Below are positions 33,760 through 62,966 of a DNA stretch of 64,000 nucleotides, piece by piece. This DNA is from Frankia sp. AgB1.9. Lineage in GTDB: Bacteria > Actinomycetota > Actinomycetes > Frankiales > Frankiaceae. The stretch's first letter is position 1. Each line of letters starts with the position of its first letter. The notes under the pieces are model-generated. The model made no database searches. It was given only the letters and a program-made list of their open reading frames with translations, and had not been told where the DNA came from. The position numbers were made by a program, and so were the translations under genes. The stretch covers positions 1-64,000 of the forward strand of contig NZ_JADWYX010000028.1 of assembly GCF_016786355.1 (NCBI RefSeq), read 5' to 3'.

Positions 33760-33774
33760 TTCAACTCAGTTCAA
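33760..33774. promoter_or_regulatory. TTnnACTnAGTnnAA operator, DapB-like gene
   Basis: TTCAACTCAGTTCAA, overlapping a TATATT -10 candidate (33756-33761) and 22 bases before the GTG start at 33796. One of seven such 15-bp palindromes in the window. Confidence 0.65.
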
Positions 33775-33795
33775 AAACTGGGCGAGGAGGCAACC

Positions 33796-34860
33796 GTGGC
33801 TTATCGGGTCATCCAGTGGGCAACCGGGACGGTCGCGAAGGAGGCGGCGCTCGGGGTTCTGGGTCGCCCCGACCTGGAACTGGTCGGCGCCTGGACCCAC
33901 TCGGCGGACAAGGACGGCCGCGACCTCGGCGACCTCTACGGCTTAGGAGAGCTGGGGGTGCGCGCCTCCGCCGACAAGGAGGCGGTCCTCGCGACACCCG
34001 CCGACGCCGTCCTGTTCATGGTCGGCCGCAACTGGGTCGACACCCCGGAGGAGTCGTTCGACGACCTGCTCCAGATCCTCCGGTCCGGCAAGAACGTCGT
34101 GAACCTCTGGTGGCCGACCCTCGTGTACCCGCGCGGGCTCGCCGGCGACTACTACGAGCGGCTGGAGCAGGCCGCCCAGGAGGGCGGCTCGACGTTCTGC
34201 ACGATCGGCATGGACCCCGGCTACGGCACCGGGGCGCTGGGCCTGTCCGCGCTCGGGCTGTCCCGCGAGGTCAGGCAGGTCAGGCTGCACCAGGTCATGA
34301 ACAACGCCTTCTGGGAGGGCCCGGGCATCACCAAGTTCTTCGGGTTCGGCCAGCTCGACACAGCGGGCACGCCGATCCTGCAGCCCGGGGTGACCACGAG
34401 CTACCACGAGACGACGATCCATATGCTCGCCGACGCCCTCGGCGTGACGGTCGACGAGATCGTCGAGGAGAACTGCGTCATCTACTCCGACGTGGCCTTC
34501 GACGTCGCGTCCGGGCACATCCCGCAGGGGACGATCTGCGGACTTCGCTACGACGTCAAGGGCATGGTCGGCGGAGAGGCCCGGATCGTCGTCGGGCACG
34601 TGGAGCGGCTGCGCGAGCACGACTTCGCGGAGTTCGACTTCCAGGGTGACGGCTACCGGGCCGAGGTGACGGGCGAGCCCTGCATCCGCCTCGACATGAA
34701 GATCTCGGCCCTGCCCGACTTCGTCGGCGACCCGATCGCGGTCGCGTCGGCGATGAGCGCGGTCAACGCCGTCCCCCGGGTGTGCGCCGCGCCCGCGGGC
34801 GTCACCTCGCTCCTCGACCTGTCGCCGTTCCCCTCGAAGAACACGACAATCAAGGGCTAG
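33796..34860 (+). CDS. DapB-fold NAD(P)-dependent dehydrogenase
   Basis: A 354-aa Rossmann protein related to dihydrodipicolinate reductase N-terminal and 2,4-diaminopentanoate dehydrogenase proteins. It starts AYRVIQWATGTVAKEAALG (nucleotide-binding strand and loop), then RPDLELVGAWTHSADKDGRD and TPADAVLFMVGRN. The C-terminal half has the pattern of actinobacterial 'dihydrodipicolinate reductase' paralogues that sit in acyl-CoA clusters. GTG at 33796 with GAGGAGG 5 bases upstream. Expression probably depends on the operator overlapping its promoter. It is a single-gene unit; the reaction is unknown. Confidence 0.85.
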   Translation: MAYRVIQWATGTVAKEAALGVLGRPDLELVGAWTHSADKDGRDLGDLYGLGELGVRASADKEAVLATPADAVLFMVGRNWVDTPEESFDDLLQILRSGKNVVNLWWPTLVYPRGLAGDYYERLEQAAQEGGSTFCTIGMDPGYGTGALGLSALGLSREVRQVRLHQVMNNAFWEGPGITKFFGFGQLDTAGTPILQPGVTTSYHETTIHMLADALGVTVDEIVEENCVIYSDVAFDVASGHIPQGTICGLRYDVKGMVGGEARIVVGHVERLREHDFAEFDFQGDGYRAEVTGEPCIRLDMKISALPDFVGDPIAVASAMSAVNAVPRVCAAPAGVTSLLDLSPFPSKNTTIKG

Positions 34861-34880
34861 CCGCCCCACAAAACTTCGTT

Positions 34881-34919: not shown

Positions 34920-36194
34920 TTAGCCGACGCCGAGCCGGGTGCCGCACCACTCGTTCGGGTCGGGTGCGCCGACGCTGGGCACCACCTCGAAGGCGGTCCC
35001 GGCGTCGTTGACGCGCACGAAGCTGTAGCACAGGTTCGGCTCCCCGAACCGGCTCAGGTCGGTGACCGGGATCAGGCCGCCGGCGTCGTAGCTCTTCAAC
35101 GCGCGCAGGTTGGTGATGAAGGCCGCTCGGGTCGGGCAGGCCCCGGCGAGCGCCAGGCCGCGCAGGAACTCGTCCGTCGTGATGTAGGCGCCGAGGGCGA
35201 CCTCGTTCGTCGGCTGGTCGAGCTCGGGCGCGTACTCGCTCATCGCCGCCTTGTAGTCCCGCAACGCCGTCGAGTCGACGCTGAACGGGATGTGCGGCGT
35301 CAGGATCGACATCCCGGCCATGCTCGCGCCCTGGCTGGACAGCAGCTGTGCGTCATAGCCAGAGGTGGCGAGCGCGACCTTGAACGTCAGCCCGGACTGC
35401 CGCGCCGCGGTGTAGATGGGCAGGAAGTCGTCGGCCGAAAGAATGCTGATCAGAGAATCAGCCCTCGACGCCCTGATCTGCGTGACGACCTTGCCGGGAT
35501 TGGTCACGGTGGGGTTGTAGACGATCGGGTCCGCCACGGCGATGCCCTGGGACTGCAGGCTCTCCCTGAACAGCTGCACCAGCGCGGTGGCCGACTGGGA
35601 CAGCGTGTCGTTGTAGACGATGGCCGCGCGGGTGGCGTTGAACCGGTGGGCGTAGAGCCCGAAGGTCGTCACCGACGAGCTCGCGGACTGCGTCGACCCG
35701 AACGTGAAGCCGAAGGTGAACATGTTCCGGTGCTCGGTCCACACGCTCTCGCCGGGCAGGCCCGTCACCGGGATGCCCTGCTTGTCCAGCTGCTGGGCCG
35801 TACTGCCCACGGAGATGCTCTGGGCGATCAGGCCGAAGTCCTTGTTCTGCGTCAGCAGGTCGCTCGCCGCCACGGCGAAGCCCGAGGTGCTCCCCTCGTC
35901 GTCGTGCCAGTCGAGCACTATCTTGCGACCGTTGACGCCGCCGGCCGCGTTCGCTACCGCGACTCTGGCCTCGGTCCCGCTGCGGGCCGCGCGGAATCCC
36001 GGGGCGATCGCGCCGCTGTCCGGGTAGATCAGGCCGACATGCACCTCGGTCGGGCTCACTCCTGGGCTGTCGCAGGAAGCAGCAGCGCCCTGGCCGGATT
36101 TGGTGCATCCGGCCAGGGCGAGTGAGGCGGCGACAGTGCAGACGGCTACCGCGGCGAGGTGCCGTCGGCGTAATTCGACAATCACGTTGTGCAT
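34920..36194 (-). CDS. ABC transporter substrate-binding lipoprotein, orphan
   Basis: Solute receptor of 424 aa, periplasmic-binding-protein type 1 (HAAT) fold. The signal AVAVCTVAASLALAGC ends in a lipobox LAGC near residue 30. Mature landmarks are EVHVGLIYPDSGAIAPGF, RIVLDWHDDEGSTSG-like NGRKIVLDWHDDEGS and an extra C-terminal Cys pair. No permease or ATPase is adjacent. It may deliver ligand to the LivHMG-LivF system 6 kb away or to a system elsewhere. No TTnnACTnAGTnnAA site precedes it, so it may be regulated differently from its neighbours or cotranscribed past the terminator at 36216. Confidence 0.9.
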   Translation of the reverse strand: MHNVIVELRRRHLAAVAVCTVAASLALAGCTKSGQGAAASCDSPGVSPTEVHVGLIYPDSGAIAPGFRAARSGTEARVAVANAAGGVNGRKIVLDWHDDEGSTSGFAVAASDLLTQNKDFGLIAQSISVGSTAQQLDKQGIPVTGLPGESVWTEHRNMFTFGFTFGSTQSASSSVTTFGLYAHRFNATRAAIVYNDTLSQSATALVQLFRESLQSQGIAVADPIVYNPTVTNPGKVVTQIRASRADSLISILSADDFLPIYTAARQSGLTFKVALATSGYDAQLLSSQGASMAGMSILTPHIPFSVDSTALRDYKAAMSEYAPELDQPTNEVALGAYITTDEFLRGLALAGACPTRAAFITNLRALKSYDAGGLIPVTDLSRFGEPNLCYSFVRVNDAGTAFEVVPSVGAPDPNEWCGTRLGVG

Positions 36195-36311: not shown

Positions 36312-37523
36312 TCAGACGGCCGCCTTCTCCAGGACGTGCACGCCGCAGGCGCTGCCCAGTCCGATGACATGGGCGAGCCCGACGCGGGCGCCCTCGATCT
36401 GGCGGTCCCCGGCCTCACCGCGCAGGTGATGGCAGATCTCCCAGACGTTGGCGATACCCGTCGCCGCGATCGGGTGTCCCTTCGACTCCAGGCCGCCGGA
36501 CACGTTGACGGGCGTCTTCCCGTCGCGCCAGGTCGCCCCCGAGTTGAAGAAGTCGACGGCGCCGCCCTCGGCGCACAGCATCAGGTTGTCGTAATGCACC
36601 AGCTCCGCCGTGGCGAAACAGTCATGCAGCTCGACGAGGTCCAGGTCCTCCGGGCCGATGCCAGCCTGCTCGTAGGCCCGGGCGGCGGCCCGCCGGGTCA
36701 GCGTGTTGACGTCCGGGAGCACCTGGCAGGCCTCCTGCCAGGGGTCGCTGGTGAGCACCGAGGCGCTGACCTTGACCGCGCGGCGGCGCTGCTCCAGCGA
36801 CAGCGTCTTCAGCTTGGCGTCGCTGACCAGTACGGCCGCGGCCGCCCCGTCGCAGTTCGCCGAGCACATCGGCCGGGTGTTCGGGTAGGCGATCATGACG
36901 TCATTCATGATCTCTTCGACGGTGAACCGCTTCGAGTAGGCCGCGAGCGGGTTCAGCGTCGAATGCGCGTGGTTCTTCTCCGAGATTCGGGCGAACAGCT
37001 CGAAATTGACGCCACCGTATTTGTAGCCATACTCCAGGCCGATCTGGGCGAACACTCCCGGCATGGACTCGGTGCCCGTCCTGCCGTCGAGCCCGGCGAC
37101 CGCACCGAAACGGCCCTCCGGCACCCAGCGGTCGTTCTCCTTGCGACGGCCGGCCGGCCCCAGCAGCCCGGCGCCGGAAAGCTTCTCGACGCCGACGGCC
37201 AGGCCGTAGTCCGCCTCCCCCGACCGGATCGCCATGATCGCGACCCGCAGCGCGGTCGCGCCGGTGGCGCAGGCGTTGGCGACGTTGTAGACCGGGATTC
37301 CGGTCTGGCCGATCTGCTTCTGCAGCTGCTGGCCGAAGGCCGAGGTCCCGGCCATCAGGCTGCCGGCGGCGAGCACGTCGATGTCGCGCATGCCGACGCC
37401 CGCGTCCGCGAGCGCGGCGAGCGCGGCCTCGGAGGCCAGGTCGACCGTGTCCTTGTCCTTGTGCTTGCCGAACTTCGTCATCGAGATCCCGAGGATCCAG
37501 ACGTCCTGGCTCACCGCGGACAT
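36312..37523 (-). CDS. Thiolase family protein (SCP2-type acetyl-CoA acetyltransferase)
   Basis: A 403-aa thiolase expected to cleave 3-ketoacyl-CoA or condense acyl-CoAs. Unlike the protein at 6462 it keeps the nucleophile, in VANACATGATAL, together with SKGHPIAATG and GLGSACGVHVLE. Landmarks LVELHDCFATAEL match the SCP2-thiolase branch. ATG at 37523 abuts GAAAGG; a GTG three codons later (37514) has better spacing and may be the real start. It lies 21 bases after the DUF35 gene, and such partners usually form a complex. Confidence 0.91.
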   Translation of the reverse strand: MSAVSQDVWILGISMTKFGKHKDKDTVDLASEAALAALADAGVGMRDIDVLAAGSLMAGTSAFGQQLQKQIGQTGIPVYNVANACATGATALRVAIMAIRSGEADYGLAVGVEKLSGAGLLGPAGRRKENDRWVPEGRFGAVAGLDGRTGTESMPGVFAQIGLEYGYKYGGVNFELFARISEKNHAHSTLNPLAAYSKRFTVEEIMNDVMIAYPNTRPMCSANCDGAAAAVLVSDAKLKTLSLEQRRRAVKVSASVLTSDPWQEACQVLPDVNTLTRRAAARAYEQAGIGPEDLDLVELHDCFATAELVHYDNLMLCAEGGAVDFFNSGATWRDGKTPVNVSGGLESKGHPIAATGIANVWEICHHLRGEAGDRQIEGARVGLAHVIGLGSACGVHVLEKAAV

Positions 37524-37544: not shown

Positions 37545-37937
37545 TCAGGCCGGCTCGAATCCATAACCGACGGCCTCGACGCCCGCCTCGTCCGCGCCCA
37601 GAGAAACGGTGGTCAGCCGGACCTGCATACCCAGTTGCACCTGCCCGGGATCCGGGTCCACATTCACCAGGATTCCGCGCGTGGTGATCCCGCCGCAGTC
37701 GACGACGGCCGCCACGTAGGGCACCGGGACACCCGGGCCGGCGGCCGACACGATCGTGAAGGTACGCAGCGTTCCCTCACGCGGGACAGTCACCTCGTGA
37801 AAGGCGGTGGCGCCACACGAGGCGCACGCGTTGCGGCGGCCGAAGAATTTTGCCGCGCACTGCTCGCACTCATGGGCGACCAGCCGCGGATCGTCCGAGA
37901 GAACCAGATAGTCGACCAGCGGAATCCGATCTGCCAC
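37545..37937 (-). CDS. DUF35 OB-fold, zinc-ribbon protein
   Basis: A 130-aa acyl-CoA-associated protein with zinc-ribbon pairs CEQC and CASC (about residues 22-42) and the OB fold REGTLRTFTIVSA, VPYVAAVVDCGG. GTG at 37937 is chosen because TTGGAG precedes it by 7 bases and the length then matches the other DUF35 protein (137 aa). The frame is open to 38105 but the added residues look non-coding. Partner of the adjacent thiolase by context. Confidence 0.87.
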   Translation of the reverse strand: MADRIPLVDYLVLSDDPRLVAHECEQCAAKFFGRRNACASCGATAFHEVTVPREGTLRTFTIVSAAGPGVPVPYVAAVVDCGGITTRGILVNVDPDPGQVQLGMQVRLTTVSLGADEAGVEAVGYGFEPA

Positions 37938-38187
37938 GAACAGCTCCAAGCGCCGGGTGCGCGTCTCGACGACGTCACACGAATGAATCTCGGTCAGGCT
38001 GACCCCGGGCCGCGGCGGCTCACTCGCGGCCGGGGATCCAACGGATCGGCAACCGCGGCTCGACACCGGCCCGTGGGCGCCCACGGCGCATGGCCTACGC
38101 CACACCCGGGTGCCCTTTCCCGGCCGCAGGGCCGGCCGGGAACCTTCTTTCCGGTCGAGCGACAGGCGCCCAGGGTGACGACGCCGC

Positions 38188-38200: not shown

Positions 38201-38848
38201 ATGAGTACCCCACCAGCCCCGCGCCGAGCCCGTCTTATGCAGGAGCGCTCCAGGGAGACGCGGCGCCGTCTGGTGCGCGCAGCGCTTCAGCTGTGGTCCG
38301 AGCGTGGATTCGAGACCGGGATCGAAGAAACGACGGCCGAAGAGATCGCCCAGGCGGCCGGCGTCACGAAGGGCACTTTCTACTTTCATTTCGCCCACAA
38401 AGAGGAGATCCTCCTCGAAATGGGCTACGAGACTGCTTCCGTGCTCAGCGAGGAAGCCGCCCGCTGCATCAAGGCGGAGCGCCCTCTTGAAGATTCGCTG
38501 CGTCTGCTGATGAACGCGCTCGCGCGGGCAATCAAGGCCGCGGACCCGGCCGCCGTCACCCGTGCGCTCGCCGAGTTCCGGCGGCCCCGCCGGTCCGACA
38601 CCGAGACGCCGTCCTTCACCCCGGCGTTCGCCGAGGCATTCGAGGTGCTGTTCGAGCGGGCGCAGAAAGAAGGCGAGGTCACCGAGCAGGTCGAGCCCGC
38701 CGAGATGGCGCAGATCGTCGAGGCGCTGGTCGTGGACTCCCTGCTCGAGTGGGCGGGAGGCCGCCTTCCCAAGCTCAATGTCTCGCTGCACCGCCGGACG
38801 GCCATCGTGCTGGCCGGGCTGCGCCCGGACAACACTCTCACGTTCTGA
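38201..38848 (+). CDS. TetR-family regulator
   Basis: A 215-aa regulator. The HTH reads ETTAEEIAQAAGVTKGTFYF followed by HFAHKEEILLEMG; the C-terminal domain is helical with a VEALVVDSLLEWAGG dimerisation region. ATG 38201 follows a TATACT -10 by 7 bases and there is no ribosome-binding site. It is divergent from the DUF35-thiolase pair. As the only TetR gene inside the region of TTnnACTnAGTnnAA sites it is the first candidate to bind them, although its own promoter lacks the element. Confidence 0.9.
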   Translation: MSTPPAPRRARLMQERSRETRRRLVRAALQLWSERGFETGIEETTAEEIAQAAGVTKGTFYFHFAHKEEILLEMGYETASVLSEEAARCIKAERPLEDSLRLLMNALARAIKAADPAAVTRALAEFRRPRRSDTETPSFTPAFAEAFEVLFERAQKEGEVTEQVEPAEMAQIVEALVVDSLLEWAGGRLPKLNVSLHRRTAIVLAGLRPDNTLTF

Positions 38849-38882: not shown

Positions 38883-39206
38883 TCAGATCTGTATCTGCAC
38901 GACGTCGTCCTGAATACGGACTGGGAACACCATCAGGTCCTGGTTGAAACCGTCGGAGTTCGACGGCCGGACGCAGGCACCCGAACGCACGTCATAACGA
39001 CTGGCGTGCGTCGGGCAGATGATGAAGCAGCCCTGGTCCAACGAGCGTCCGCCGAGTTTGCTGCCCTGGTGTGGGCAGAGGTTCTGGAAGGCGAAGTACT
39101 CGCCGTCCACGTTGGCGACGGCGACTGGAAAACCATCCACCATGACGGTCGTCGTCTCGCCCGGCTCGATGAAGTCGATCGGCAGGGCGTCATAGAAATC
39201 GGCCAC
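38883..39206 (-). CDS. Rieske [2Fe-2S] ferredoxin
   Basis: A 107-aa soluble electron-transfer protein. The cluster ligands are in CPHQGSK and CPTHASRYD, separated by the usual 16 residues. TTTVMVDGFPVAVANVDGEY forms the N-terminal sheet. It resembles ferredoxins of ring-hydroxylating dioxygenases, but no oxygenase alpha subunit or reductase is in this window. Last gene of the amidohydrolase-SDR-Rieske operon, 21 bases after the SDR stop. Confidence 0.92.
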   Translation of the reverse strand: MADFYDALPIDFIEPGETTTVMVDGFPVAVANVDGEYFAFQNLCPHQGSKLGGRSLDQGCFIICPTHASRYDVRSGACVRPSNSDGFNQDLMVFPVRIQDDVVQIQI

Positions 39207-39227: not shown

Positions 39228-40010
39228 CTAGTAGCTGCGGGCGCGCACGACGTCGAGCTTCTGGCCGCGCGGCCGGGTGACGATGAAGACGTGGACGTCG
39301 GCCACGCTTTCGACCGTCATTCCGCCGTGCTTGCCAATCACTCGGTTGACAGTTCCCTCGGCCTGCAGCCGCGGCCACACCAGATGGCTGTGCTCCCCGC
39401 TGTCCACCCAGTCCGTCGAGCCTCCACCCTCTCCGAGGGCGACGCCCTGGATGAGAGTCGTGACCCGGATCTCCTCCTTCTCGAACTCCAGGGACAAGGC
39501 CTGGCCCAGCGCCTCGAGGCCCGCCTTCGTCGCCTTGTAGATGGCCTCGTACGGGAAGACCTCGAGCGTGACCTCGGACGAGGTGTTGACGATGTCGCCA
39601 CCGCCCGCGGCCCGCAGCAGCGGGATCGCCGCGCGGCAGGTGTAGACGGGGCCGAGCAGGTTGCACCGCACGACCGTGAGGATCTCGTCGTCGGTGAGCG
39701 CCTCGAACGGTGCCGGCCGGTGCAGGCCGGCATTGTTGATGAGGACGTCCAGCTTCCCGAACCGGTTCTTGATGGCGTCGAAGCTGGCCTGGACGCTGTC
39801 GGGATCACCGACGTCGGTCGTCAGGCCCAACGCGCGCGGCCCGAGCTGTTCTTCGAGCGCCTTCAGCCGGTCGGCGCCACGAGCCAGCAGAACCACGTCG
39901 GCGCCCTCGGCCGCGAACCGCCGCGCGATGGCGAGCCCGGAGCCGCTGGTCGCCCCGGTCACCGCGACGACCTTGCCGGCGAGCTGTCCCGCGCCGTTGC
40001 TCTCGCTCAT
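39228..40010 (-). CDS. Short-chain dehydrogenase/reductase
   Basis: A 260-aa classical SDR. NAD(P) loop TGATSGSGLAIARRF (normally TGxxxGxG), LDVLINNAGLH, catalytic Ser in DIVNTSSEVTLE and the Y-x3-K motif YKATK (Tyr replaced in position: EAIYKATKAG keeps Y-K-A-T-K). ATG 40010 overlaps the amidohydrolase stop by 3 bases, fixing the start. The C-terminus RPRGQKLDVVRARSY is family-like. It probably oxidises a hydroxy- or reduces a keto-intermediate. Confidence 0.9.
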   Translation of the reverse strand: MSESNGAGQLAGKVVAVTGATSGSGLAIARRFAAEGADVVLLARGADRLKALEEQLGPRALGLTTDVGDPDSVQASFDAIKNRFGKLDVLINNAGLHRPAPFEALTDDEILTVVRCNLLGPVYTCRAAIPLLRAAGGGDIVNTSSEVTLEVFPYEAIYKATKAGLEALGQALSLEFEKEEIRVTTLIQGVALGEGGGSTDWVDSGEHSHLVWPRLQAEGTVNRVIGKHGGMTVESVADVHVFIVTRPRGQKLDVVRARSY

Positions 40011-41284
40011 GCGCTCAGCACCCCGATTCCCGCGGCCTCGTTGCGTCGCCGCCATTCGTCCTTGGACATCCGGGTGACGTCGACGTGCGCCGCGGCGGCC
40101 CGCGCCCGCAGCGCCCCGACCGTGGCGTCCTCGCGCGCGATCGTGGTGAAGGGGTCGAACCCGAAGAACCGGCAGGCGTTCTGCCAGGTGATCTTGTGGG
40201 TCTCCTCCTCGGTCACCCCCGCGTCGGTCAGCTCGCCCCACAGCAGCTCGGGCGACTCCGGCCAGGTGGTGTCCGTGTGCGGGTAGTCCGACTCCCACGC
40301 GATGATGTCGATGCCGATCTCGTGCCGGTTCTTCAGGCCGATCGGGTCGGTGATGAAGCAGCCGAGGACGTGCTCGCGGAACAGATCCGACGGCAGCTTG
40401 CCGCCGAAGTCGTTGTGCAGCCACACCTGGTTCTTCACGTGCCGGTCGGCCCGCTCCAGGTAGAACGGGATCCAGCCGATCCCGGCCTCCGAGAAAGCGA
40501 TCTTCAGCGTCGGGTACCTGAGCAGCACCCCGCCGAAGATCAGGTCCTGCGCGACCAGCGTCATGATCTGGGTCGACAGGATGATTGAGTGGTCCGGCGG
40601 GGCCTCGGTCGGCAGCTTCAGCAGGCCCATGCCGCCGCCGATGTGCAGGCAGAGCACGGTCCCGGTCTCGACGACCGCCTCCAGCAGCGGGTCCCAGTGG
40701 CCGGACAGCAGGCTGGGGTAGCCCTGCGCGTGCGGCGCCTCCAGGAAGCTGACCGCCGGGCAGCCCTTCGCGGACAGCCGGCGCACCTCGGCCGCGGCGA
40801 TCCGCGGGTCCCACATCGGCAGCATCCCGATCGGGATGAACCGCCCGGGCGCGCCGGCGCACCACTCGTCGATGTGCCAGTCGTTGTAGGCCTGCAGCAT
40901 GATCAGCGAGAGCTGCTTGTCCGGGGCCTCGGCGAAGGTCCTGGCGTTGTAGCCGGCCATGCTGGGGAAACACATCGAGGCCAGCACACCGTTGGCGTTC
41001 ATGTCGTCGACCCGGGCCTTCAGGTCGAAGCAGCCTGGCCGCAGCTCGGTGTAGGTGCCGGGGTCGCGACCCCACTCCTCCGCGGGCCAGCCGACCGTGG
41101 CGGCCATGCCGAACGGCGTCGAGGTCGCCGCGCCCTGGAAGACCCACTGGTCGATCCCGCCGGGGGTACGGATGACCTTCGGCGCCAGGTCCCGGTACTT
41201 GGCGGGCACGTGCCGCTCGTACATGTCGGGCGGCTCGATCGAATGATCATCGATGCTCACGAGGATCATGTCTTCTTTTTGCAT
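40007..41284 (-). CDS. Amidohydrolase-2 family protein (COG2159)
   Basis: A TIM-barrel protein of 425 aa, paralogue of the one at 23391. The N-terminal metal region reads SIDDHSIEPPDMYERHVPAK, with H-x2-E in place of H-x-H. YNDWHIDEW, LCLHIGGG, IAFSEAGIGWIPFYLERADR and WESDYPHTDTTWPES follow. The start is ambiguous between GTG 41290, ATG 41284 and ATG 41269; 41284 has AAAGG at suitable spacing. It heads the operon with the SDR and Rieske genes, behind the operator at 41328. A decarboxylase or hydrolase of a cyclic acid is possible, but unproven. Confidence 0.88.
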   Translation of the reverse strand: MQKEDMILVSIDDHSIEPPDMYERHVPAKYRDLAPKVIRTPGGIDQWVFQGAATSTPFGMAATVGWPAEEWGRDPGTYTELRPGCFDLKARVDDMNANGVLASMCFPSMAGYNARTFAEAPDKQLSLIMLQAYNDWHIDEWCAGAPGRFIPIGMLPMWDPRIAAAEVRRLSAKGCPAVSFLEAPHAQGYPSLLSGHWDPLLEAVVETGTVLCLHIGGGMGLLKLPTEAPPDHSIILSTQIMTLVAQDLIFGGVLLRYPTLKIAFSEAGIGWIPFYLERADRHVKNQVWLHNDFGGKLPSDLFREHVLGCFITDPIGLKNRHEIGIDIIAWESDYPHTDTTWPESPELLWGELTDAGVTEEETHKITWQNACRFFGFDPFTTIAREDATVGALRARAAAAHVDVTRMSKDEWRRRNEAAGIGVLSA

Positions 41285-41327
41285 CCGCACGTGACCTTTC
41301 GTGCTCCACGATCGGCACTGTCAGTAT

Positions 41328-41342
41328 TTTGACTCAGTTTAA
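41328..41342. promoter_or_regulatory. TTnnACTnAGTnnAA operator, amidohydrolase operon
   Basis: TTTGACTCAGTTTAA. On the minus strand it includes TAAACT, a possible -10, about 45 bases before the amidohydrolase start. Confidence 0.65.
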
Positions 41343-41392: not shown

Positions 41393-41436
41393 CCCACGTC
41401 CCTCAGGAACCCACGTCCCTCAGGAACCCACGTCCT
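41393..41436. repeat. 17-bp tandem repeat across the livF stop
   Basis: Two exact units CCCACGTCCCTCAGGAA plus a 10-base partial third. The stop codon of livF (41420-41422) lies in the second unit, so the duplication repeats the end of the gene. Confidence 0.85.
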
Positions 41437-46612: not shown

Positions 46613-46627
46613 TTGTACTGAGTACAA
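46613..46627. promoter_or_regulatory. TTnnACTnAGTnnAA operator, perfect palindrome, ABC operon
   Basis: TTGTACTGAGTACAA, the only exactly palindromic copy in the window, upstream of the minus-strand lipoprotein-livHMG-livF operon. Confidence 0.75.
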
Positions 46628-46910: not shown

Positions 46911-46925
46911 TTATACTCAGCCTAA
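46911..46925. promoter_or_regulatory. TTnnACTnAGTnnAA operator, CaiB-SDR operon
   Basis: TTATACTCAGCCTAA; one mismatch (AGC for AGT). It contains TATACT (46912-46917), a likely -10 for the plus-strand CaiB-SDR genes. Confidence 0.6.
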
Positions 46926-47009
46926 CTATGGTGTTCCGTGACGAGCCGTTCGCCGACCCACCCGTGGTCCGACCGGCTTCCAGCCGTACGTAGGAAGGAC
47001 CGCGGATCC

Positions 47010-48354: not shown

Positions 48355-48378
48355 CCGCCCGGAGAAAGAGGCAGCAAC

Positions 48379-53489: not shown

Positions 53490-53554
53490 CACTCTCTAAC
53501 CTCCGGGATCGCCAGTCAGCTCCGGTCCGTGCTAGAACCGAGCAACAAGGTAAA

Positions 53555-53569
53555 TTATACTGAGTTGAA
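53555..53569. promoter_or_regulatory. TTnnACTnAGTnnAA operator, SDR/acyl-CoA dehydrogenase divergon
   Basis: TTATACTGAGTTGAA, 66 bases before the SDR start and 88 before the dehydrogenase start. It includes TATACT, a -10 candidate for the plus strand. Confidence 0.65.
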
Positions 53570-54805: not shown

Positions 54806-56068
54806 ATGACCGACACACCGGAGATCGCGCGGTACCGCGCGACGGCGAGGCAGTGGCTCGCCGCGAACCTCGAGGCACGCGACCCGAGCCAGCCCCACAA
54901 CGTGCGCGGCGCCGGCGAGCTCAGCCCCGAGGAGTACCAGGCCGAGCGGGCCCTGCAGAAGAAGCTCTACGAGGCCGGGTACGCGGGCATCAACTGGCCG
55001 AGCGAGTACGGCGGCCAAGGGCTGAGCGACCAGCACGCCCGCGTCTTCGCCGAGGAGGCGGTCCAGTACCGCACGCCCGAGCTCGGCCACGCGGGCGGGA
55101 CGACCTACGGGCCGTGCGGGCAGACCATCGTCCGGCACGGCTCGCCCGAGTTCCTGACCAGGCACGTCCCCCGGATGCTGGCCGGCGACGAGCTGTTCGT
55201 CCAGCTGTTCTCCGAGCCGAGCGCCGGCTCCGACATGGCCGGCATCACCACCCGGGCGGTCCGCGAGGGCGACCGGTGGCTGATCACCGGATCGAAGATC
55301 TGGACGAGCGGCGCCCACTACGCCGACTACGGGATGTGCCTGGCCCGCACCAACTGGGACGCGCCCAAGCACCGCGGCCTCACCTGGTTCGCCATCCCGC
55401 TGCGGGCCAAGGGCGTGGCCATCCACCCGATCCGCGAGATCACCGGCGACGCCGAGTTCTGCCAGGAGTTCCTCGACGAGGTCGAGGTCGGCGACGAGGA
55501 CATCATCGGCGAGATCAACCAGGGCTGGACCGTCGCGCAGACGCTGCTGCTGGTCGAGCGGGGCGCCGGTCGTGACGACCCGCTGAACATGCCCGCGGCG
55601 CAGCCCGCAGTGATCGACCCGCAGCTGGTCAGCCTGACCCGGGCGGCCGGGCGCGCGCAGGACCCGGTCGCCCGCCAGACCGTCGCGCGGATCCACACCG
55701 CCGACTGGGCGAAGGCCATGCTCGGCCAGCGGATCACCGGGCTGCTGCGGTCGGGCGAGAAGCCCGCGGCCGGCGTCGCCTCGTACTGGAAGCTCGCGGC
55801 CGGCATCTACAACCCGGAGCGGGCCCGCCTCGTACTGGAGATCGGCCAGGGCCTCGGCCTCGTCTGGAAGGAAGGCGACGAGGAGGGGAACCGTGCGGCG
55901 CTGGACTATCTGAACAGCCGGGTCTGGTCGATCGCCGGTGGCTCCAACGAGATGCAGCGCAACGCGATCAGCGAGCAGGTCCTCGGCATGCCGCGGGAGC
56001 CGAGCTTCGACAAGGGAAAGCCGTTCCGGGAGGTCGTGAACAACGCCCGCGAGTGGCTGAAGTCCTGA
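54806..56068 (+). CDS. Acyl-CoA dehydrogenase, large subunit type
   Basis: A 420-aa acyl-CoA dehydrogenase with VQLFSEPSAGSDMAGITT (about 132-149), GSKIWTSGAHYADYGMCLAR, HRGLTWFAIPLRAKGV and C-terminal SIAGGSNEMQRNAISEQVLG. It lies 24 bases after its probable partner. It is related to the large subunit at 21913. The pair likely dehydrogenates a bulky or branched acyl-CoA. Confidence 0.92.
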   Translation: MTDTPEIARYRATARQWLAANLEARDPSQPHNVRGAGELSPEEYQAERALQKKLYEAGYAGINWPSEYGGQGLSDQHARVFAEEAVQYRTPELGHAGGTTYGPCGQTIVRHGSPEFLTRHVPRMLAGDELFVQLFSEPSAGSDMAGITTRAVREGDRWLITGSKIWTSGAHYADYGMCLARTNWDAPKHRGLTWFAIPLRAKGVAIHPIREITGDAEFCQEFLDEVEVGDEDIIGEINQGWTVAQTLLLVERGAGRDDPLNMPAAQPAVIDPQLVSLTRAAGRAQDPVARQTVARIHTADWAKAMLGQRITGLLRSGEKPAAGVASYWKLAAGIYNPERARLVLEIGQGLGLVWKEGDEEGNRAALDYLNSRVWSIAGGSNEMQRNAISEQVLGMPREPSFDKGKPFREVVNNAREWLKS

Positions 56069-56242: not shown

Positions 56243-56257
56243 TTAGACTCAGTTCAA
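56243..56257. promoter_or_regulatory. TTnnACTnAGTnnAA operator, amidohydrolase-CaiB
   Basis: TTAGACTCAGTTCAA, 35 bases before the TTG start at 56293. It includes TAGACT (56244-56249), a possible -10. Confidence 0.65.
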
Positions 56258-56292: not shown

Positions 56293-57582
56293 TTGGCCGA
56301 CACGCCTCAGCTCGGATCACGCGGTATTTACGTGGCGGATGTCGAGCAGAGCCTCCCGTACGGCATTTTCGATGCCGACCATCACCTGTACGCCCCGGCG
56401 GACGCGGTGACGCGATACCTGGCTCCCGAGATGGTCGACCGGGCCTGGCTGCCGGGTGAGCCGCGGATGCTGACCGAGGAAGAGCACGACGAGGACGTCG
56501 ACCACGAGCGCCGGACGCTCGGTGTGCACTCCGCGCCCGAGGGCGGCTTCGGCGGCGTCGACCTCTCCCAGGTTTCCGGGATGGACGGGAACATCCCGAT
56601 CCCGGGCGCGATGCTCAACAAGCTCAACCCGATGAAGGACCTCGACCAGCTCAGCCGCGAGCAGCTCATCGAGCGGTACAACGCCATGCGGCCGGCCTTC
56701 GAGAAGAAGGACCCGCGGCTGTCGCTGATGGACCTTCAGAACGTCGAGCTCGCGGTCCTGCACACGGTCGGCACCGGCTGGGAGAGCGCGTTCGGCCGGG
56801 GCGACATCGAGGCCGGCTATGCCGTGAACCGGGCCTACAACGACTGGCTCTTCGAGGACTGGGGCTTCGCCCACGAGAACCGCATCCTGGTTCCGGTGCC
56901 GATCCCGCTGCTGGACGTCGACTACGCGGTCGCCGAGCTCAAGCGGTCGCTGGAGCGCGGCGCGAAGTTCGTCGATCTGCAGCCCGGCCCGGCCTGGAAC
57001 GGCCGGTCGCCGTTCGACCCGTACTTCGACCCGTTCTGGAACCTCGTCAACGAGTCCAACACCCGGGTCGCCGTCCACCTCGGCGGGACCTACGCGCGCC
57101 ACGGCGCCGAGTGGGGCGAGAAGGCCGACGCCCGTTACGTGGAGTTCAACGGGTTCCAGTGGGTGTCCTACTGGGGTGACCGTCCGATGATGGACACCCT
57201 GACCTCGATGTTCTACCACGGCATGTTCGGCCGCTTTCCCAACATCAAGGTGCTCATCGCCGAGTTCGGAACCGTCTGGCTGCCGTACCTGCTCCGCAAG
57301 CTGGACCACGCGATGCTGCTGGGCCGCAAGCCCAAGTGGGGCTCGCTGCCGGGCCGTCCGTCCAGCGTCTTCAAGGAGCGGTGCGTCATCGCTCCGTTCC
57401 CGGAGGAGGACATCAACCGCGGTATCGACACCGTCGGCGCCGACTGCCTCGTCTTCGGGTCGGACTTCCCGCACTCCGAGGGTGTTCCGGACCCGATGCA
57501 GTACGTCGCGCTGCTCAAGGATCTGGACGACACGACGATCCGCAAGATCATGCGCGACAATCTCGTCCGCTTCATGGGCTGA
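56293..57582 (+). CDS. Amidohydrolase-2 family protein
   Basis: A TIM-barrel protein of 429 aa, of a different branch from the two at 23391 and 40007. The N-terminal metal region reads GIFDADHHLYAPADAVTRYL, with two adjacent His. Further landmarks are YNDWLFEDWGF, VHLGGTYARHG, VLIAEFGTVWLPYLLRKLDH and FGSDFPHSEGVPDP. A TTG start at 56293 is chosen because AGGAGG lies 5 bases upstream and no ATG or GTG fits. It is followed by a hairpin and a CaiB gene. The reaction is unknown. Confidence 0.88.
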   Translation: MADTPQLGSRGIYVADVEQSLPYGIFDADHHLYAPADAVTRYLAPEMVDRAWLPGEPRMLTEEEHDEDVDHERRTLGVHSAPEGGFGGVDLSQVSGMDGNIPIPGAMLNKLNPMKDLDQLSREQLIERYNAMRPAFEKKDPRLSLMDLQNVELAVLHTVGTGWESAFGRGDIEAGYAVNRAYNDWLFEDWGFAHENRILVPVPIPLLDVDYAVAELKRSLERGAKFVDLQPGPAWNGRSPFDPYFDPFWNLVNESNTRVAVHLGGTYARHGAEWGEKADARYVEFNGFQWVSYWGDRPMMDTLTSMFYHGMFGRFPNIKVLIAEFGTVWLPYLLRKLDHAMLLGRKPKWGSLPGRPSSVFKERCVIAPFPEEDINRGIDTVGADCLVFGSDFPHSEGVPDPMQYVALLKDLDDTTIRKIMRDNLVRFMG

Positions 57583-57596
57583 CCGACCCGCGCCGC

Positions 57597-57639
57597 ACCG
57601 TGCCTCCACCGCCGATACCCCGGGCGGTGGGGGCACGGT
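57597..57639 (+). terminator. Hairpin terminator after amidohydrolase
   Basis: Arms ACCGTGCCTCCACCGCC and GGCGGTGGGGGCACGGT, 17 bp with one G-T pair and a 9-base loop, between the amidohydrolase and the next CaiB gene. Confidence 0.75.
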
Positions 57640-57692
57640 CGTTATGGTCCGAACAGCGATCCGTCCTGCCCACGGTCTCCGAGGAGAAAGCC

Positions 57693-58817
57693 ATGCCCGA
57701 CCCGAAGCTGCCCTTGAGCGGCGTCACGGTACTGGACCTCACCCGGCTGCCTCCCGGCGCGTTCTGCACCGTGCTGCTCGCCGACTTAGGCGCGGACGTC
57801 ATCCGGGTCGAGTCGCCGAAGGGCCGGATGTTCGACGGCCCGATCGGGCTGAACCGCGGCAAACGCTCGGTCGCGGTCGATCTACGTCATCCGCGCGGGC
57901 TCGAAGTGCTCCGCCTACTGGCCGCGCACGCCGATGTGCTGGTGGAGAACGAGCGGCCCGGCGCCCTGGACGAGCGGGGTTTTGGCTACTCCCACGCGGC
58001 GAAGGAACTGCCGAAACTCATCTGGTGCTCTATTTCCGGCTACGGCCAGGATGGCCCGTACGCACAGTGGTCCGGACACGATCTTTCGTTCGCGGCGCAC
58101 TCGGGCCTGCTGACCGGGCTGAGCCCGGAGCTGCCCTGGCACCCGCAGCTGATCCTGCCGATTCCGATCGGGGCCCTGATGGCCGGCGTCGGAATCCTCG
58201 CGGCTCTGCGGGAGCGGGACCAGACCGGTTCGGGGTGCCAGCTCGACATCAGCCTCTCGGAGTCGGCGACCTGGCTGCTCTCCTCGGCGGACGGCACGTT
58301 CGACCGCGGCGGGCGCGGCGTGCCGATCGGCCCGGACCGGCGTCTGTATGCCTGCGCGGACGGGACCTGGGTCGCGGTGACGGCCGCGGAACCCCGCACC
58401 TGGGGAGCGCTCTGCGACGGGCTCGGCCTGCCGGACCTCAAGGACTCGCTGCACCGGTGGGACGACCCGGACGCCGTGACGCAGCGGCTCGCGGCTGTCT
58501 TCCTGAGCCGCCCGGCCGAGGACTGGGTCGCCGAGCTCGGGCCGCTGGGCGCCAGCGTGGTGCGGGTGAACCGGGGGCCTGACCTGGCCAGCGATCCACA
58601 CGCGACCGCGCGGGGCGTGCTCCAGCAGGTCGGGGACCTGCTGGTTCCGCGCGCGCCTATCCGGATCCTTGACGAGGATGGCCCGCGGCCGGCTGCCGAG
58701 ACCTATCCACCGCCCCCGGCCGGCGCGCACACCCGCGCGGTGTTGGAAGAGGCCGGCCTGGCCCCCGCTCTCATCGACGAGCTGGAGGAGTCCGGCGCCG
58801 TCGGGCCGCGCGGCTGA
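57693..58817 (+). CDS. CaiB/BaiF CoA-transferase homologue lacking the catalytic Asp
   Basis: A 374-aa family III CoA-transferase homologue. N-terminal LSGVTVLDLTRLPPGAFCTV, ADLGADVIRVESPKGRM and RGKRSVAVDLRHPRG are normal. The active-site segment reads LPIPIGALMAGVGILAAL, where family members have an Asp followed by L-x-G-G-L; the Asp is replaced by Ile by alignment to the GILAAL helix. It may be inactive alone, a partner subunit, or a racemase-like variant. ATG 57693 with GAGGAGAAAG upstream. Confidence 0.87.
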   Translation: MPDPKLPLSGVTVLDLTRLPPGAFCTVLLADLGADVIRVESPKGRMFDGPIGLNRGKRSVAVDLRHPRGLEVLRLLAAHADVLVENERPGALDERGFGYSHAAKELPKLIWCSISGYGQDGPYAQWSGHDLSFAAHSGLLTGLSPELPWHPQLILPIPIGALMAGVGILAALRERDQTGSGCQLDISLSESATWLLSSADGTFDRGGRGVPIGPDRRLYACADGTWVAVTAAEPRTWGALCDGLGLPDLKDSLHRWDDPDAVTQRLAAVFLSRPAEDWVAELGPLGASVVRVNRGPDLASDPHATARGVLQQVGDLLVPRAPIRILDEDGPRPAAETYPPPPAGAHTRAVLEEAGLAPALIDELEESGAVGPRG

Positions 58818-58950: not shown

Positions 58951-61377
58951 TCAGGTCAGGCGCTGTAGCTGGGGAAGGGCGTCGGGTAGGCAGATGACGT
59001 TCTCGCTGGCCAGGGTCTTCATCTCGGGCTCGGACACGCCCAGCTCGGCCAGGATCTCCACGGCCTGCGAGCCCACCGCGCCAGGGCTCGCCCCGACCCG
59101 CGGCGGCGTCTCCGAGAGCCACCGTCCGATGCCGGGCCGCGCGACGTCCTTGCCGTCCAGGCCCCGCTCGAAGTAGACGACACCCCGCCGATGCAGGTAG
59201 GCGACCGCGTCATCGATGGAGACGAGGATCTGCGCCGCGATGCCGGCCTGCGTCAACAGCGCCACCCAGTGGTCGGCCGACTCGTCGGCGAACCGGGAGG
59301 CCAGCATCTCGGCCAGGACTCCGCCCGGGTTCCGCCAGCTGTAGTCGGACTGGCTGCCTTCCAGCCCTGTCGCGCGCAGCAGCGCGACCAGCTCCTCCCG
59401 GCGCGCCGCGAGGAAGATCCACCGGTCCTTGGTGGCGTAGAAGCGGTACAGCGCGTGGGCGCCGTACTCGTTGCGCAGCCGGTCGGGACCACCGTCCTTC
59501 AAGGCACCGTCCCTCACGTCACCGTCGGTCACTTGCGCCTCGGCCGTGAGGTAGGCGGCCTGGTGCAGCGTCGAGCCCTGGGCCAGCGAGGCGCCGACCT
59601 TCTGCCCGCCACCACCGCGCAGCCGCGCGAACAGGCCGACGGCCACGGCATAGGCGCCGAGGATCCCGGTGTCGGCGTCGTTGATCGGCGTCGGCTGGTA
59701 GAGCGTCCAGCCGAAGCGCGAGCCGTAACGCCAGCTCATCCCGGTCGCCGCGTTGCACTGGTTCTCGTAGCCGCGGCGGTGCGCCCACGGGCCGGTGAGG
59801 CCGTAGGCGGTGATGGAGCAGTAGACGAGCCCCGGGTTCAGCCGGCTGGCCCGCTCGTAGTCGATGCCGTACCTGGCCTGCGACTTGGGCGTGAAGTTGG
59901 TGACGAGCATGTCGGAGGCCCGGATCAGGTCGCCCGCGAGCCGCCCGCCCGCCTCGCTCTTCGCGTCCAGCAGGATGGTGCGCTTCCCCCGGTGCAGCTG
60001 GCCGACGATGCCGTCGGTCACCGCCGGAACCGTGTTGCCCACCTTGATGACGTCAGCGCCGAAGTCGGCCAGCAGCCGGGCCGCTGTCGGGCCGGCCACG
60101 GCCTGGCTCACGTCGATGGCCTGGTAGCCCTCCAGCGGAAGGTCGATGGCGCCCGTCGCAGGCCCGTCCGGGGCCTTGGGACCGGCGGGGGTGGCGCCGA
60201 GTTCGGCGAGGATCGCGGCGCGGTCCTGGTCGGGCAGGTGGCGCGGCCGGGGCGCCGGGACCGCGGCCAGGTCGAAGCCGCGCCCCGGCAGGACGATCGG
60301 GCCGGCCACCGGGTCATCGAGCGTCACGACGGCGCCGGACTGGGCCGCGTGCTCGGTGGCGACCCACTGCGCCGGCGTCCGGACCATCGAGACCGGCATC
60401 TCCGCCTTGGCAGCGACCTCGTCCCACCAGGTCGACGGGTGGCTACGGACCAGCTCGGTGAACATCGCCATGGCGGTGTCCCGCTTCGCCAGCGAGAACG
60501 TCCGGTTCGCGACGTCGATCAGCCCGAGGCGTTCCCACTCCGGCGCGACCCCGGCCGCCACGAGCAGCGGGATGACGAACTTCGAGTAGGGCGACAGGTC
60601 GATCATCCCGCCGTCCGCGCAGGTGTAGGTCAGGTCGCGCAGCATGTGGTTGTCGCCCATGAGCGGGTTCTCGTAGACCCGCATGCCGAGCATCGTGCTG
60701 TACGCCTCGGCGTAGGCCTCCGCGAGCGGGACCTCGACCCGTTGGCCCCGCCCGGTGCGCTCGCGGGCGATCAGCGCCATGACGACGGACACTGCCCCCA
60801 TCAGGCCGCCGAAGTTGGACGCCGTGGTGATCGGGGTGAACAGCGGCGCCGCGGGGTCCGCCACCTTGGCCCTGGTCCGCCCGGACGGGTCCCAGTGCTC
60901 CTTGAGGGGCCGGTACCCGGCGACGGCCGTCTGCAGCACGCCCTCCCAGGCCGCCACGTCCGCCTTCTCGTCGTCGGCCGCGAAGCCCGGCAGCGAGCAG
61001 TAGACCAGCCGCTCGTTGAGGTCGCGCGCCGCCGCCGGCCCGAGGCCGAGGCGGTCCATGACGCCCGGCCGGAAGTTCTCGATCACCACGTCGGCGCGCG
61101 CCACCAGGTCCCGCGCGGTGGCCCGGTCGGCCGCGCCGCGCAGGTCCAGGGTGATCCGCCGCTTGCTCCGGTTGAAGAACGCGTCGGTCGGTCCGAGTGC
61201 CCCGGCGGCCCGCGGGGAGTCGACGTGCACGACGTCGGCCCCCGCCTCGGCCAGCAGCAGCGCGGCAAGCGGCCCCGCGATCTGGTGGCCGAAGTCCACC
61301 ACCCGGACCCCGGCCAGCCCGGCGCCGACGCTGACATCAGCGCTGAGACCGGCGCGCTGCGACCTAGTTGACTGCAC
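58951..61377 (-). CDS. Tandem two-domain CaiB/BaiF CoA-transferase
   Basis: An 808-aa protein with two family III CoA-transferase domains. Domain 1 (about 1-390) starts GLAGVRVVDFGHQIAGPLAA; its active-site segment reads TPITTASNFGGLMGA and seems to lack the Asp. Domain 2 (about 425-808) starts LEGYQAIDVSQAVAGPTAAR and has TPINDADTGILGAYA, which retains Asp. The GTG at 61377 lies inside the 3' end of the acyl-CoA ligase gene (14-base overlap) with GGGAGGG 8 bases upstream. The two halves may form an internal pseudo-dimer with one active site. Confidence 0.88.
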   Translation of the reverse strand: MQSTRSQRAGLSADVSVGAGLAGVRVVDFGHQIAGPLAALLLAEAGADVVHVDSPRAAGALGPTDAFFNRSKRRITLDLRGAADRATARDLVARADVVIENFRPGVMDRLGLGPAAARDLNERLVYCSLPGFAADDEKADVAAWEGVLQTAVAGYRPLKEHWDPSGRTRAKVADPAAPLFTPITTASNFGGLMGAVSVVMALIARERTGRGQRVEVPLAEAYAEAYSTMLGMRVYENPLMGDNHMLRDLTYTCADGGMIDLSPYSKFVIPLLVAAGVAPEWERLGLIDVANRTFSLAKRDTAMAMFTELVRSHPSTWWDEVAAKAEMPVSMVRTPAQWVATEHAAQSGAVVTLDDPVAGPIVLPGRGFDLAAVPAPRPRHLPDQDRAAILAELGATPAGPKAPDGPATGAIDLPLEGYQAIDVSQAVAGPTAARLLADFGADVIKVGNTVPAVTDGIVGQLHRGKRTILLDAKSEAGGRLAGDLIRASDMLVTNFTPKSQARYGIDYERASRLNPGLVYCSITAYGLTGPWAHRRGYENQCNAATGMSWRYGSRFGWTLYQPTPINDADTGILGAYAVAVGLFARLRGGGGQKVGASLAQGSTLHQAAYLTAEAQVTDGDVRDGALKDGGPDRLRNEYGAHALYRFYATKDRWIFLAARREELVALLRATGLEGSQSDYSWRNPGGVLAEMLASRFADESADHWVALLTQAGIAAQILVSIDDAVAYLHRRGVVYFERGLDGKDVARPGIGRWLSETPPRVGASPGAVGSQAVEILAELGVSEPEMKTLASENVICLPDALPQLQRLT

Positions 61378-62911
61378 GGTCGCGGCCCTCCCAGTAGGGG
61401 GCCCGCAGCTTGAACTTCTGCAGCTTCCCGGTCGCCGTCCGCTCCAGGGCGTCACGCAGCTCGATGGAGGTGGGGCACTTGTAGTGCGCCATCCGCTCCC
61501 GGCAGAAGGCGATCAGCTCGGCCGGCTCGACCCGCTCCCCCGGCCGCAGCACGACCAGGGCCTTCACGGTCTCGCCCCACTTCGGGTCGGGCACACCGAT
61601 CACCGCGGCCTCGGCCACGGACTTGTGCAGGTACAGGCAGTCCTCGACCTCGATCGACGACACGTTCTCGCCGCCGGTGATGATCACGTCCTTCTTCCGG
61701 TCCGTGATCGCCAGCGTCGCGCCGTCGAGGGTCCCGCCGTCACCGGTGTGGAACCAGCCGTCCTCGATGGCGAGGGCGGTCTGCTCCGGCTGCTCCCAGT
61801 ACCCGTCGAACACGTGGTTGGAGCGGGCCATCACCTCGCCGGAGGGGTCGAGCCGGATGCGGACGCCCAGCGCCGGGACGCCGGCCTGTGCCAGCAGCCG
61901 CGACCGCTCGTCGACGGACAGGCCGTCCCACTCGGCCCTGGACCGGTTGATCGTCAGCAGTGGCGAGGCCTCGGTGAGGCCGTAGATCTGGATGAACTCC
62001 CAGCCCAGCAGCTCCTCGACGCGCGCGACGACGGCGCTGGGCGGCGGCGCACCGGCGACGACTATCCGGACGGTGTCGCGCCCCGGGACCGGTTGGCCGG
62101 CTTCCAGTCGCACCGCGGCGGCGTCGAGGATCGAGGCGACGACGGCGGGGGCGCCGCACATCAGCGTCACGCCCTCCCGCTCGACCCGGGACAGGATGTC
62201 CTCACCGTCGATCTTGCGGATCGCGACGTGGGTGCCGCCCATACCGGTCACCGCGAAGGGCATCCCCCAGCCGTTGACGTGGAACATCGGCAGCGTGTGC
62301 AGGATGACGTCTCGGTCGGTCACCGTGGTGTGCCAGCCGAACGAGACCGCGTTGAGCCAGTTGTTGCGGTGGGTCAGCCGCACGCCCTTGGGGCGCGCCG
62401 TCGTCCCGGACGTGTAGTTGATCGTGCAGACCGCGTCCTCGTCGGGCTCCCAGGCCACCGGCGTCGCGCCGGGCGCGGCCTCGGCGAACAGCTCGGCGTC
62501 GGCCACGCCGTCCAGGACGATCCGCTCCTTGGCCTTCACGCCGGACAGCACGTCGTCTAGCTCCGGGTCGACGAGCAGCACCGACGCGCCCGAGTGCTCC
62601 ACGATGTAGGAGATCTCGGCCGCGGTCAGCCGGTAGTTGATCGGCACCAGGACCCGGCCGTACCCGCTCACCCCGTAGAAGCTGATCAGGAACCGGGCGC
62701 AGTTCGGCGACACGATCGCGACGCGCTCGCCGGCGGGGACTCCCAGCCGGTCCAGCGCCAGCGCCATCCCGCGGGCCCGCGCCGCCACCTCTCGATAGGT
62801 GAGCCGCCCGAACGAGCCGGGCCGGCCCGGCTCGTCGACCACCGCGAGGCGCTCCGGGTACACCGCCTCGGCCCGATCGAGAAAGTCCGCGACCGTCAGG
62901 GCAACCTTCAT
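61364..62911 (-). CDS. Acyl-CoA ligase (AMP-binding), medium/long-chain type
   Basis: A 515-aa class I adenylate-forming enzyme. P-loop NYTSGTTARPKGV (Ala for the usual Gly), PMFHVNGWGMPF, IYGLTEASPLLT, FHTGDGGTLDG, DRKKDVIITGGENVSSIEVE and the C-terminal Lys in RTATGKLQKFKLR. ATG 62911 with AAGGAGGG 8 bases upstream. Translationally coupled to the tandem CaiB gene. The operator at 62952 lies between it and the divergent hydratase. Activates an imported or released carboxylic acid. Confidence 0.93.
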   Translation of the reverse strand: MKVALTVADFLDRAEAVYPERLAVVDEPGRPGSFGRLTYREVAARARGMALALDRLGVPAGERVAIVSPNCARFLISFYGVSGYGRVLVPINYRLTAAEISYIVEHSGASVLLVDPELDDVLSGVKAKERIVLDGVADAELFAEAAPGATPVAWEPDEDAVCTINYTSGTTARPKGVRLTHRNNWLNAVSFGWHTTVTDRDVILHTLPMFHVNGWGMPFAVTGMGGTHVAIRKIDGEDILSRVEREGVTLMCGAPAVVASILDAAAVRLEAGQPVPGRDTVRIVVAGAPPPSAVVARVEELLGWEFIQIYGLTEASPLLTINRSRAEWDGLSVDERSRLLAQAGVPALGVRIRLDPSGEVMARSNHVFDGYWEQPEQTALAIEDGWFHTGDGGTLDGATLAITDRKKDVIITGGENVSSIEVEDCLYLHKSVAEAAVIGVPDPKWGETVKALVVLRPGERVEPAELIAFCRERMAHYKCPTSIELRDALERTATGKLQKFKLRAPYWEGRDRAVN

Positions 62912-62951
62912 CAGCCAGTCCCTCCTTTGACCGGGTTGAAACTAGCGGTTC

Positions 62952-62966
62952 TTCAACTTAGTGTAA
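62952..62966. promoter_or_regulatory. TTnnACTnAGTnnAA operator, ligase/hydratase divergon
   Basis: TTCAACTTAGTGTAA, 41 bases before the ligase start. The minus strand contains TACACT and the plus strand TAGTGT, both possible -10 elements. Confidence 0.65.

Follow-up and report, generated by a model that had tools for sequence, protein, structure and literature searches.

Which regulator reads the 15-bp palindrome that recurs along a cluster of catabolic genes in Frankia sp. AgB1.9, and what does it control? The window considered here is the whole 64,000-nucleotide stretch of contig NZ_JADWYX010000028.1 that was analysed, in which an earlier note had picked out seven copies of the palindrome as likely repressor sites and the TetR-family gene at 38201 as the nearest candidate for their binder. 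It is probable, on the evidence assembled below, that the palindrome serves as operator for a cluster-specific TetR repressor encoded at 38201-38848, here called TetR(38201), which would control a coenzyme A (CoA)-dependent degradation pathway together with its ATP-binding cassette (ABC) importer and be released by a ligand of the acyl-CoA type. The sites are real, are nearly confined to the cluster, are conserved, track the starts of transcription units and co-occur with this TetR gene.

Six exact copies of the pattern TTNNACTNAGTNNAA are present in the window, at 33760, 41328, 46613, 53555, 56243 and 62952, while the copy at 46911 (TTATACTCAGCCTAA) differs from it by one mismatch, which bears out all seven coordinates and the single imperfect copy described previously. 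When up to two mismatches are allowed, the pattern is found at 8 places in the window against 1.76 expected (100 shuffles, maximum 6). In the genome as a whole (9,788,632 bases scanned) there are seven exact copies, six of them inside 29 kb of the window, compared with one for the reversed-pattern control; a similar density of the motif throughout the genome, which the earlier note had named as telling against a regulon, is thus not observed. The seventh exact copy (C234:38114) lies within a riboflavin kinase/FAD synthetase gene, as identified by FAD_syn and Flavokinase matches. Specificity is lost at up to two mismatches, at which 192 places are found genome-wide against 292 for the control. 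The frequency of the core ACTNAGT by itself is unremarkable in the window (7 occurrences against 3.74 expected, a level reached by 10 of 100 shuffles), hence the strength of the motif resides in the full 15-bp dyad.

All seven window copies are upstream of genes once the starts are placed by homology, in agreement with their description as intergenic; the site at 46613 overlaps the longest-possible open reading frame (ORF) of a gene whose conserved start is near 46310. From left to right, TTCAACTCAGTTCAA (33760..33774) is 21 bp before a dapB-like gene; TTTGACTCAGTTTAA (41328..41342) is 37 bp before the minus-strand amidohydrolase gene amh1; TTGTACTGAGTACAA (46613..46627), a perfect palindrome as had been stated, is 302 bp upstream of the minus-strand lipoprotein and liv genes, with no TANNNT found nearby; TTATACTCAGCCTAA (46911..46925) falls within the 18-bp spacer of the proposed promoter of the CoA-transferase gene caiB1; TTATACTGAGTTGAA (53555..53569) separates the divergent genes for a short-chain dehydrogenase/reductase (SDR3) and an acyl-CoA dehydrogenase (acad1); TTAGACTCAGTTCAA (56243..56257) is 35 bp before a second amidohydrolase gene, amh2; and TTCAACTTAGTGTAA (62952..62966) lies between the divergent ligase and enoyl-CoA hydratase (ech) genes. 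The sites precede the units that the earlier note had listed, with the correction that the minus strand carries amh1-SDR-Rieske, lipoprotein/liv, SDR3 and ligase-CaiB. A possible second operator, the two-mismatch palindrome TTTGACCGGGTTGAA at 62926..62940, overlaps the proposed -35 element of ech; it is present in all five fetched clusters of genus g1, and no full palindrome is seen in the sister-genus promoters shown.

The wider consensus, TAnTTnnACTnAGTnnAAnTA, comes from a symmetrised matrix built on 42 sites, in which C/G is tolerated at positions 7 and 9; being symmetrical by construction, the matrix does not allow the two halves to be compared. Invariant positions number 69 of 70 in the core and 221 of 420 in the flanks, a contrast biased by the choice of sites on their core and by the ungapped alignment of the flanks. 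Among 49 gene-oriented sites there are 2 mismatches per 245 cells in the upstream half and 15 per 245 in the downstream, AGTnnAA half; as these sites were chosen at no more than one mismatch and the orthologues are non-independent, the figures describe the motif and are no test of it. Conservation is good in both halves (243 and 230 of 245 cells matching), such that the lack of conservation of the AGTnnAA half in orthologous promoters, which would have counted against the proposal, is not found, even if this is the looser of the two.

The clusters of related genomes were located by tblastn of the window proteins. In genus g1, a site with at most one mismatch is present at all seven orthologous promoters in each of three genomes (G001, G004 and G006) and at all five fetched promoters in a fourth (G003). 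The gene order of the sister genus g2 differs from that of g1. In G008, dapB is placed behind caiB1, amh1 behind the liv genes and acad1 behind SDR2, each on the same strand as the genes preceding it and each without a site of its own; caiB2, about 1.2 kb behind amh2, likewise has none. Separate sites are retained there by caiB1, sbp2 (the lipoprotein gene), livF, SDR2, amh2 and the ech/SDR3 divergon. The same pattern is seen in G026, and in G023 for caiB1, sbp2, livF, SDR2 and amh2, the ech/SDR3 divergon being outside the fetched stretch. The sites thus track transcription-unit starts through the rearrangement of the cluster between genera, and operon-internal genes have lost theirs.

Orthologues of TetR(38201) with at least 67% identity were found in 11 of the 58 genomes searched, with the G020 and G026 genes truncated at the end of a contig. 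Among the carriers are Frankia nepalensis CN7, Pseudofrankia asymbiotica, Parafrankia soli, Parafrankia sp. EUN1f, Parafrankia colletiae and Frankia sp. EI5c. The 11 genomes together hold 50 exact copies of the motif, whereas the remaining 47 genomes hold 6. By carrier, the counts are 7 (G000), 6 (G001), 5 (G003), 6 (G004), 6 (G006), 3 (G008), 5 (G014, including copies repeated at contig ends that are possibly one site), 1 (G017), 5 (G020), 3 (G023) and 3 (G026), a total in which are counted the G000 copy within the riboflavin kinase/FAD synthetase gene, one from a separate contig of G006 and G020 copies from beyond the core cluster. The six non-carrier copies are divided between G002, with two, and G019, G028, G031 and G038, with one each. 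Among 393 genomes drawn from the class, with 7 candidates scored per genome, matches to TetR(38201) at E ≤ 1e-30 are limited to 17, all in the family to which the window belongs. The protein has the helix-turn-helix (HTH) domain expected of a TetR regulator (TetR_N, E 2.4e-13), and its AlphaFold model is all-helical with a mean predicted local distance difference test score (pLDDT) of 85.

Parafrankia soli (L038, L062) keeps the TetR gene and one operator, with a partial acad1, acad2 in two pieces, a partial amh2 and a best amh1 match of only 69%, perhaps as a decayed remnant of the cluster. In Parafrankia colletiae there are two extra sites with the common word CAATTTTGAACTTAGTATAA, one 37 bp before a P450 gene and the other 171 bp from a gene for a substrate-binding protein (L028:7994, L027:3336), and it is possible that these genes are additional members of the regulon. 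One copy in G006 (L019:5599) is flanked by an SDR gene and another TetR-type gene, and may belong to the latter regulator.

Palindromes of related geometry are found near one group of TetR(38201) paralogues. In this group (34-39% identity; 10 loci, L047 and L051-L059) the frame TTnnnCnnnGnnnAA, scored where at least five of seven arm bases pair, is upstream of the TetR gene at nine loci, L053 having none; its TT, C, G and AA are spaced around an odd centre as they are in the 15-bp operator. At six loci with wider flanks (L077-L082) the palindrome lies between the TetR gene and a divergent SDR gene, as TTTGAnCAnTGnTCAAA in five and as a one-base variant in L077. At 27 control TetR loci of the genome (30 fetched, 3 of them truncated at a contig end), the 600 bp upstream of the HTH contain no palindrome of this sort. 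The standing of TetR(38201) as the candidate binder is hence improved by its phylogenetic pattern, by its position in the cluster and by the palindrome of the same geometry at this one paralogue group. The same paralogous TetR/SDR divergon (L080:7946; L077-L079, L081 and L082) carries a conserved palindrome, CCATTTGAnCAnTGnTCAAATGG, in five cases and a variant in L077. In genus g6 (L073-L075) a set of related genes stands next to a TetR paralogue of 41-43% identity, and the motif is absent; the thiolase there is 82% identical in L074 and L075 and in pieces in L073, the OB protein 62-64% and the P450 about 50%.

The position of the operator suits a repressor that would block RNA polymerase, as far as promoters can be read from sequence. 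For 49 of the 57 promoter directions, the first base of a TANNNT hexamer falls in the range -8 to +20 relative to the operator, as against 4 of 168 displaced control windows 100-200 bp upstream, a comparison weakened by the motif's own AT content, which lifts TANNNT counts, and by control windows that may be coding. Taking the orthologue-shared TANNNT, which was chosen by the authors where several occur, the register is -3 at dapB, +2 at amh1, amh2, acad1 and lig, +8 at ech, +11 at SDR3 (TATAAT) and +17 at caiB1 and SDR2. Upstream hexamers are weak except at ech, where TTGACA or TTGAAA lies 17 bp from the -10, and at caiB1 and SDR2, which have TTG hexamers at 18 bp. The earlier claim that most copies overlap a -10 element is therefore upheld for the majority of sites, in several registers, and fails for the 46613 site at the lipoprotein promoter.

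Several observations weigh against TetR(38201) as a repressor acting at these sites. No TANNNT is found at the lipoprotein (sbp2) promoter site in any of six genomes, and at livF it is found in one of three; to this are added the AT bias of the promoter counts and the unequal strictness of the two halves. The co-occurrence of motif and TetR is confounded, since both are parts of the cluster. An orthologue with 47-48% identity in an actinobacterial metagenome-assembled genome (L066), beside homologues of the ech, thiolase and OB genes, has no matching palindrome. The paralogue palindromes count as a single evolutionary event because their loci are orthologous to each other, and the closer paralogue group (39-45%, 8 loci) lacks such a palindrome near the TetR gene, its two matches being GC-rich and far off; a de novo dyad count in that group gave no result and the positive control also failed, owing to the dominance of coding composition, and nothing is concluded from it. 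Furthermore, there are at least 150 TetR_N matches in the genome (150 among 366 candidates scored), so proximity alone cannot identify the binder, and in genus g1 no site precedes either the TetR gene or the OB-thiolase-sbp1 genes.

The last two of these points favour the alternative that the palindrome serves another regulator as operator, one whose gene lies elsewhere in the genome, with TetR(38201) as a passenger, as does a look-alike, TTGCACTTAGTTCAA, beside another TetR-like gene in genus g111. At least one exact copy of the motif occurs in 101 of the 393 genomes drawn from the class, and the highest counts outside the family of the window are those of G219 (6 against 7 for the control, in a genome of 1.8 Mb), G314 (5 against 1) and G369 (4 against 1). 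In G314 and G369, the two that were inspected, copies of the TTGCACTTAGTTCAA type are found, some paired 34 bp apart; one separates a divergent gene from another ORF that by eye is TetR-like. The odd 15-bp dyad is therefore not exclusive to this regulon. We nevertheless regard a different regulator as unlikely, because TetR(38201) is, among the mapped window genes, the only regulator kept wherever the site cluster occurs; because in G008, G023, G014 and G020 its gene lies downstream of same-strand genes headed by an operator; and because neither a site cluster without an orthologue nor an orthologue without a site was found in the 58 genomes. As a separate observation, genus g111 (L113-L118) has sites of the TTGAACTNAGTTCAA type at other genes, some in tandem 34 bp apart, a spacing also seen in G135, and apparently these form a different regulon.

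It is also conceivable, at rather long odds, that the element is an activator site or an alternative-sigma promoter element and not a repressor operator. Left halves such as TTATACT and TTAGACT resemble -10 boxes and the upstream half is the stricter, an inequality that shifts the balance slightly from a TetR operator in this direction. Opposing this are the good conservation of both halves, the ability of one site to serve two divergent promoters and the retention of TTG-18-TANNNT around the site at caiB1 and SDR2; in addition, the register to the orthologue-shared TANNNT varies among promoter classes while the sequence of the palindrome stays constant, which makes it unlikely to be a promoter element. 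A chance cluster of similar words in AT-rich intergenic DNA, for which the abundance of the pattern at two mismatches might be cited, is rejected with virtual certainty by the excess of matches in the window, by the concentration of six of the genome's seven exact copies within 29 kb and by conservation across two genera and through rearrangement.

Returning to the TetR(38201) operator, we infer binding and repression by this protein, and an acyl-CoA ligand, in the following form. A dimer would occupy the 15-bp site, which at the majority of promoters either overlaps the -10 box or takes up the spacer between -35 and -10, and would thereby deny RNA polymerase access to the transcription units of the ABC importer and of the CoA-dependent degradation pathway. 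The repressor would then be released by an intermediate of that pathway, which is probably an acyl-CoA formed by the ligase or by the CoA-transferases. TetR-controlled regulons of acyl-CoA catabolism are of a known kind, and by analogy this one would work like those of KstR or FadR with a different operator. The operator and regulon appear new as far as these searches show: word searches of the open-access literature found no publication on this operator, which does not prove that there is none.

The best match of TetR(38201) by both sequence and structure is Thermus thermophilus FadR (PDB 3ang, 3anp), a TetR repressor holding a bound acyl-CoA, and KstR is also among the structural matches. 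The resemblance to FadR is limited to 25-27% identity and a template modelling (TM) score of 0.61-0.70, and the efflux-pump repressors SmeT and NalD rank next, such that the match favours an acyl-CoA ligand without showing it. The Thermus protein serves general fatty acids, as opposed to a specialised pathway here. The KstR and KstR2 cholesterol regulons of mycobacteria and rhodococci resemble the present case in pairing a TetR repressor with a palindrome that stands ahead of several units in a cluster for CoA-dependent degradation. Their sites are 14-bp palindromes, that of KstR2 being AnCAAGnnCTTGnT, according to the published description (PMC3068626). The operator described here, by contrast, is 15 bp long, has an odd centre and differs in sequence. 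In the window there is a single match to the KstR pattern, TNNAACNNGTTNNA, which falls within amh2, and none was found to that of KstR2. Identity with KstR or KstR2 is rejected, as TetR(38201) scores 31.6 bits with the NCBIfam KstR model against a cut-off of 280 and neither motif is present at the promoters; nor is it a ScbR-type autoregulator receptor by NCBIfam (84 bits against a cut-off of 150).

Pfam and NCBIfam scans of the window proteins identify the genes as a CoA-centred cluster with an ABC importer of the branched-chain type. On the plus strand the DapB-like or 2,4-diaminopentanoate dehydrogenase-like gene (33796..34860) is followed on the minus strand by genes for a periplasmic binding protein, sbp1 (34920..36194), an SCP2-type thiolase (36312..37523) and its OB-fold (ChsH2_C/BbsA-like) partner (37545..38105, start uncertain). 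Beyond the plus-strand TetR gene (38201..38848, 215 aa), minus-strand genes encode a Rieske ferredoxin (38883..39206), SDR1 (39228..40010, start approximate), Amh1 (40007..41290, amidohydrolase 2), a LivF-type ATPase named from sequence and not by family search (41420..42127, start approximate), an open frame joining a permease-like part to a LivG-type ATPase as a fused LivH-LivM-LivG (42117..45014) and the lipoprotein-like substrate-binding protein Sbp2 (45099..46310, start by homology). The plus strand then carries the family III CoA-transferase gene caiB1 (46938..48230) and SDR2 (48211..49197), both with uncertain starts. After SDR3 (52662..53492, minus) come plus-strand acad1 (53657..54781), acad2 (54806..56068), amh2 (56293..57582, amidohydrolase 2) and caiB2 (57579..58817, family III), then on the minus strand a fused double CaiB CoA-transferase (58951..61455) and the acyl-CoA ligase (61364..62911), and finally plus-strand ech (63102..64000), cut by the window end. 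Downstream of ech, outside the window and in the same direction, are Suc_Fer-like, aldehyde dehydrogenase and P450 genes (L008). The HTH_17, PIN and HipA-like genes at 49469-52511, inside the catabolic cluster, are the sole other regulatory-looking genes identified there; hipA is also present in G001, and the G004 and G006 clusters yielded none of the three, the G003 stretch being outside the comparison.

The substrate of the pathway was sought through Amh1, which aligns with DitZ (PDB 8uyr) over residues 3-418 of 427 (E 1.5e-130). Amh1-like matches at E ≤ 1e-60 number 9 to 23 per genome in the 11 TetR carriers (20 in G000), with up to 30 candidates scored, and given this abundance the substrate cannot be named from DitZ. 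The name DitZ presumably points to diterpenoid degradation, the link to the substrate being only a lead. Literature word searches gave nothing on DitZ, so naming the substrate by this route failed, and a plasmid search with Amh1 produced only matches below 60% identity. A broader proposal, possible but doubtful, is that TetR(38201) belongs to a Frankiaceae TetR subfamily with the common odd-centred frame TTnnnCnnnGnnnAA and differing inner bases, and that its regulon serves an undescribed pathway for polycyclic plant or soil compounds with a CoA thioester as the inducer; the pathway would comprise the P450, the ligase, the paired acyl-CoA dehydrogenases, the SCP2-thiolase/OB-fold pair and the DitZ-like amidohydrolase.

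These results give a large, uncharacterised pathway of Frankia-like bacteria a precise operator and a candidate regulator, both cheap to test. They also offer a handle on its substrate, as the CoA thioester that releases the repressor would point to the pathway, and an example of operators following the starts of transcription units as a cluster rearranges between genera.

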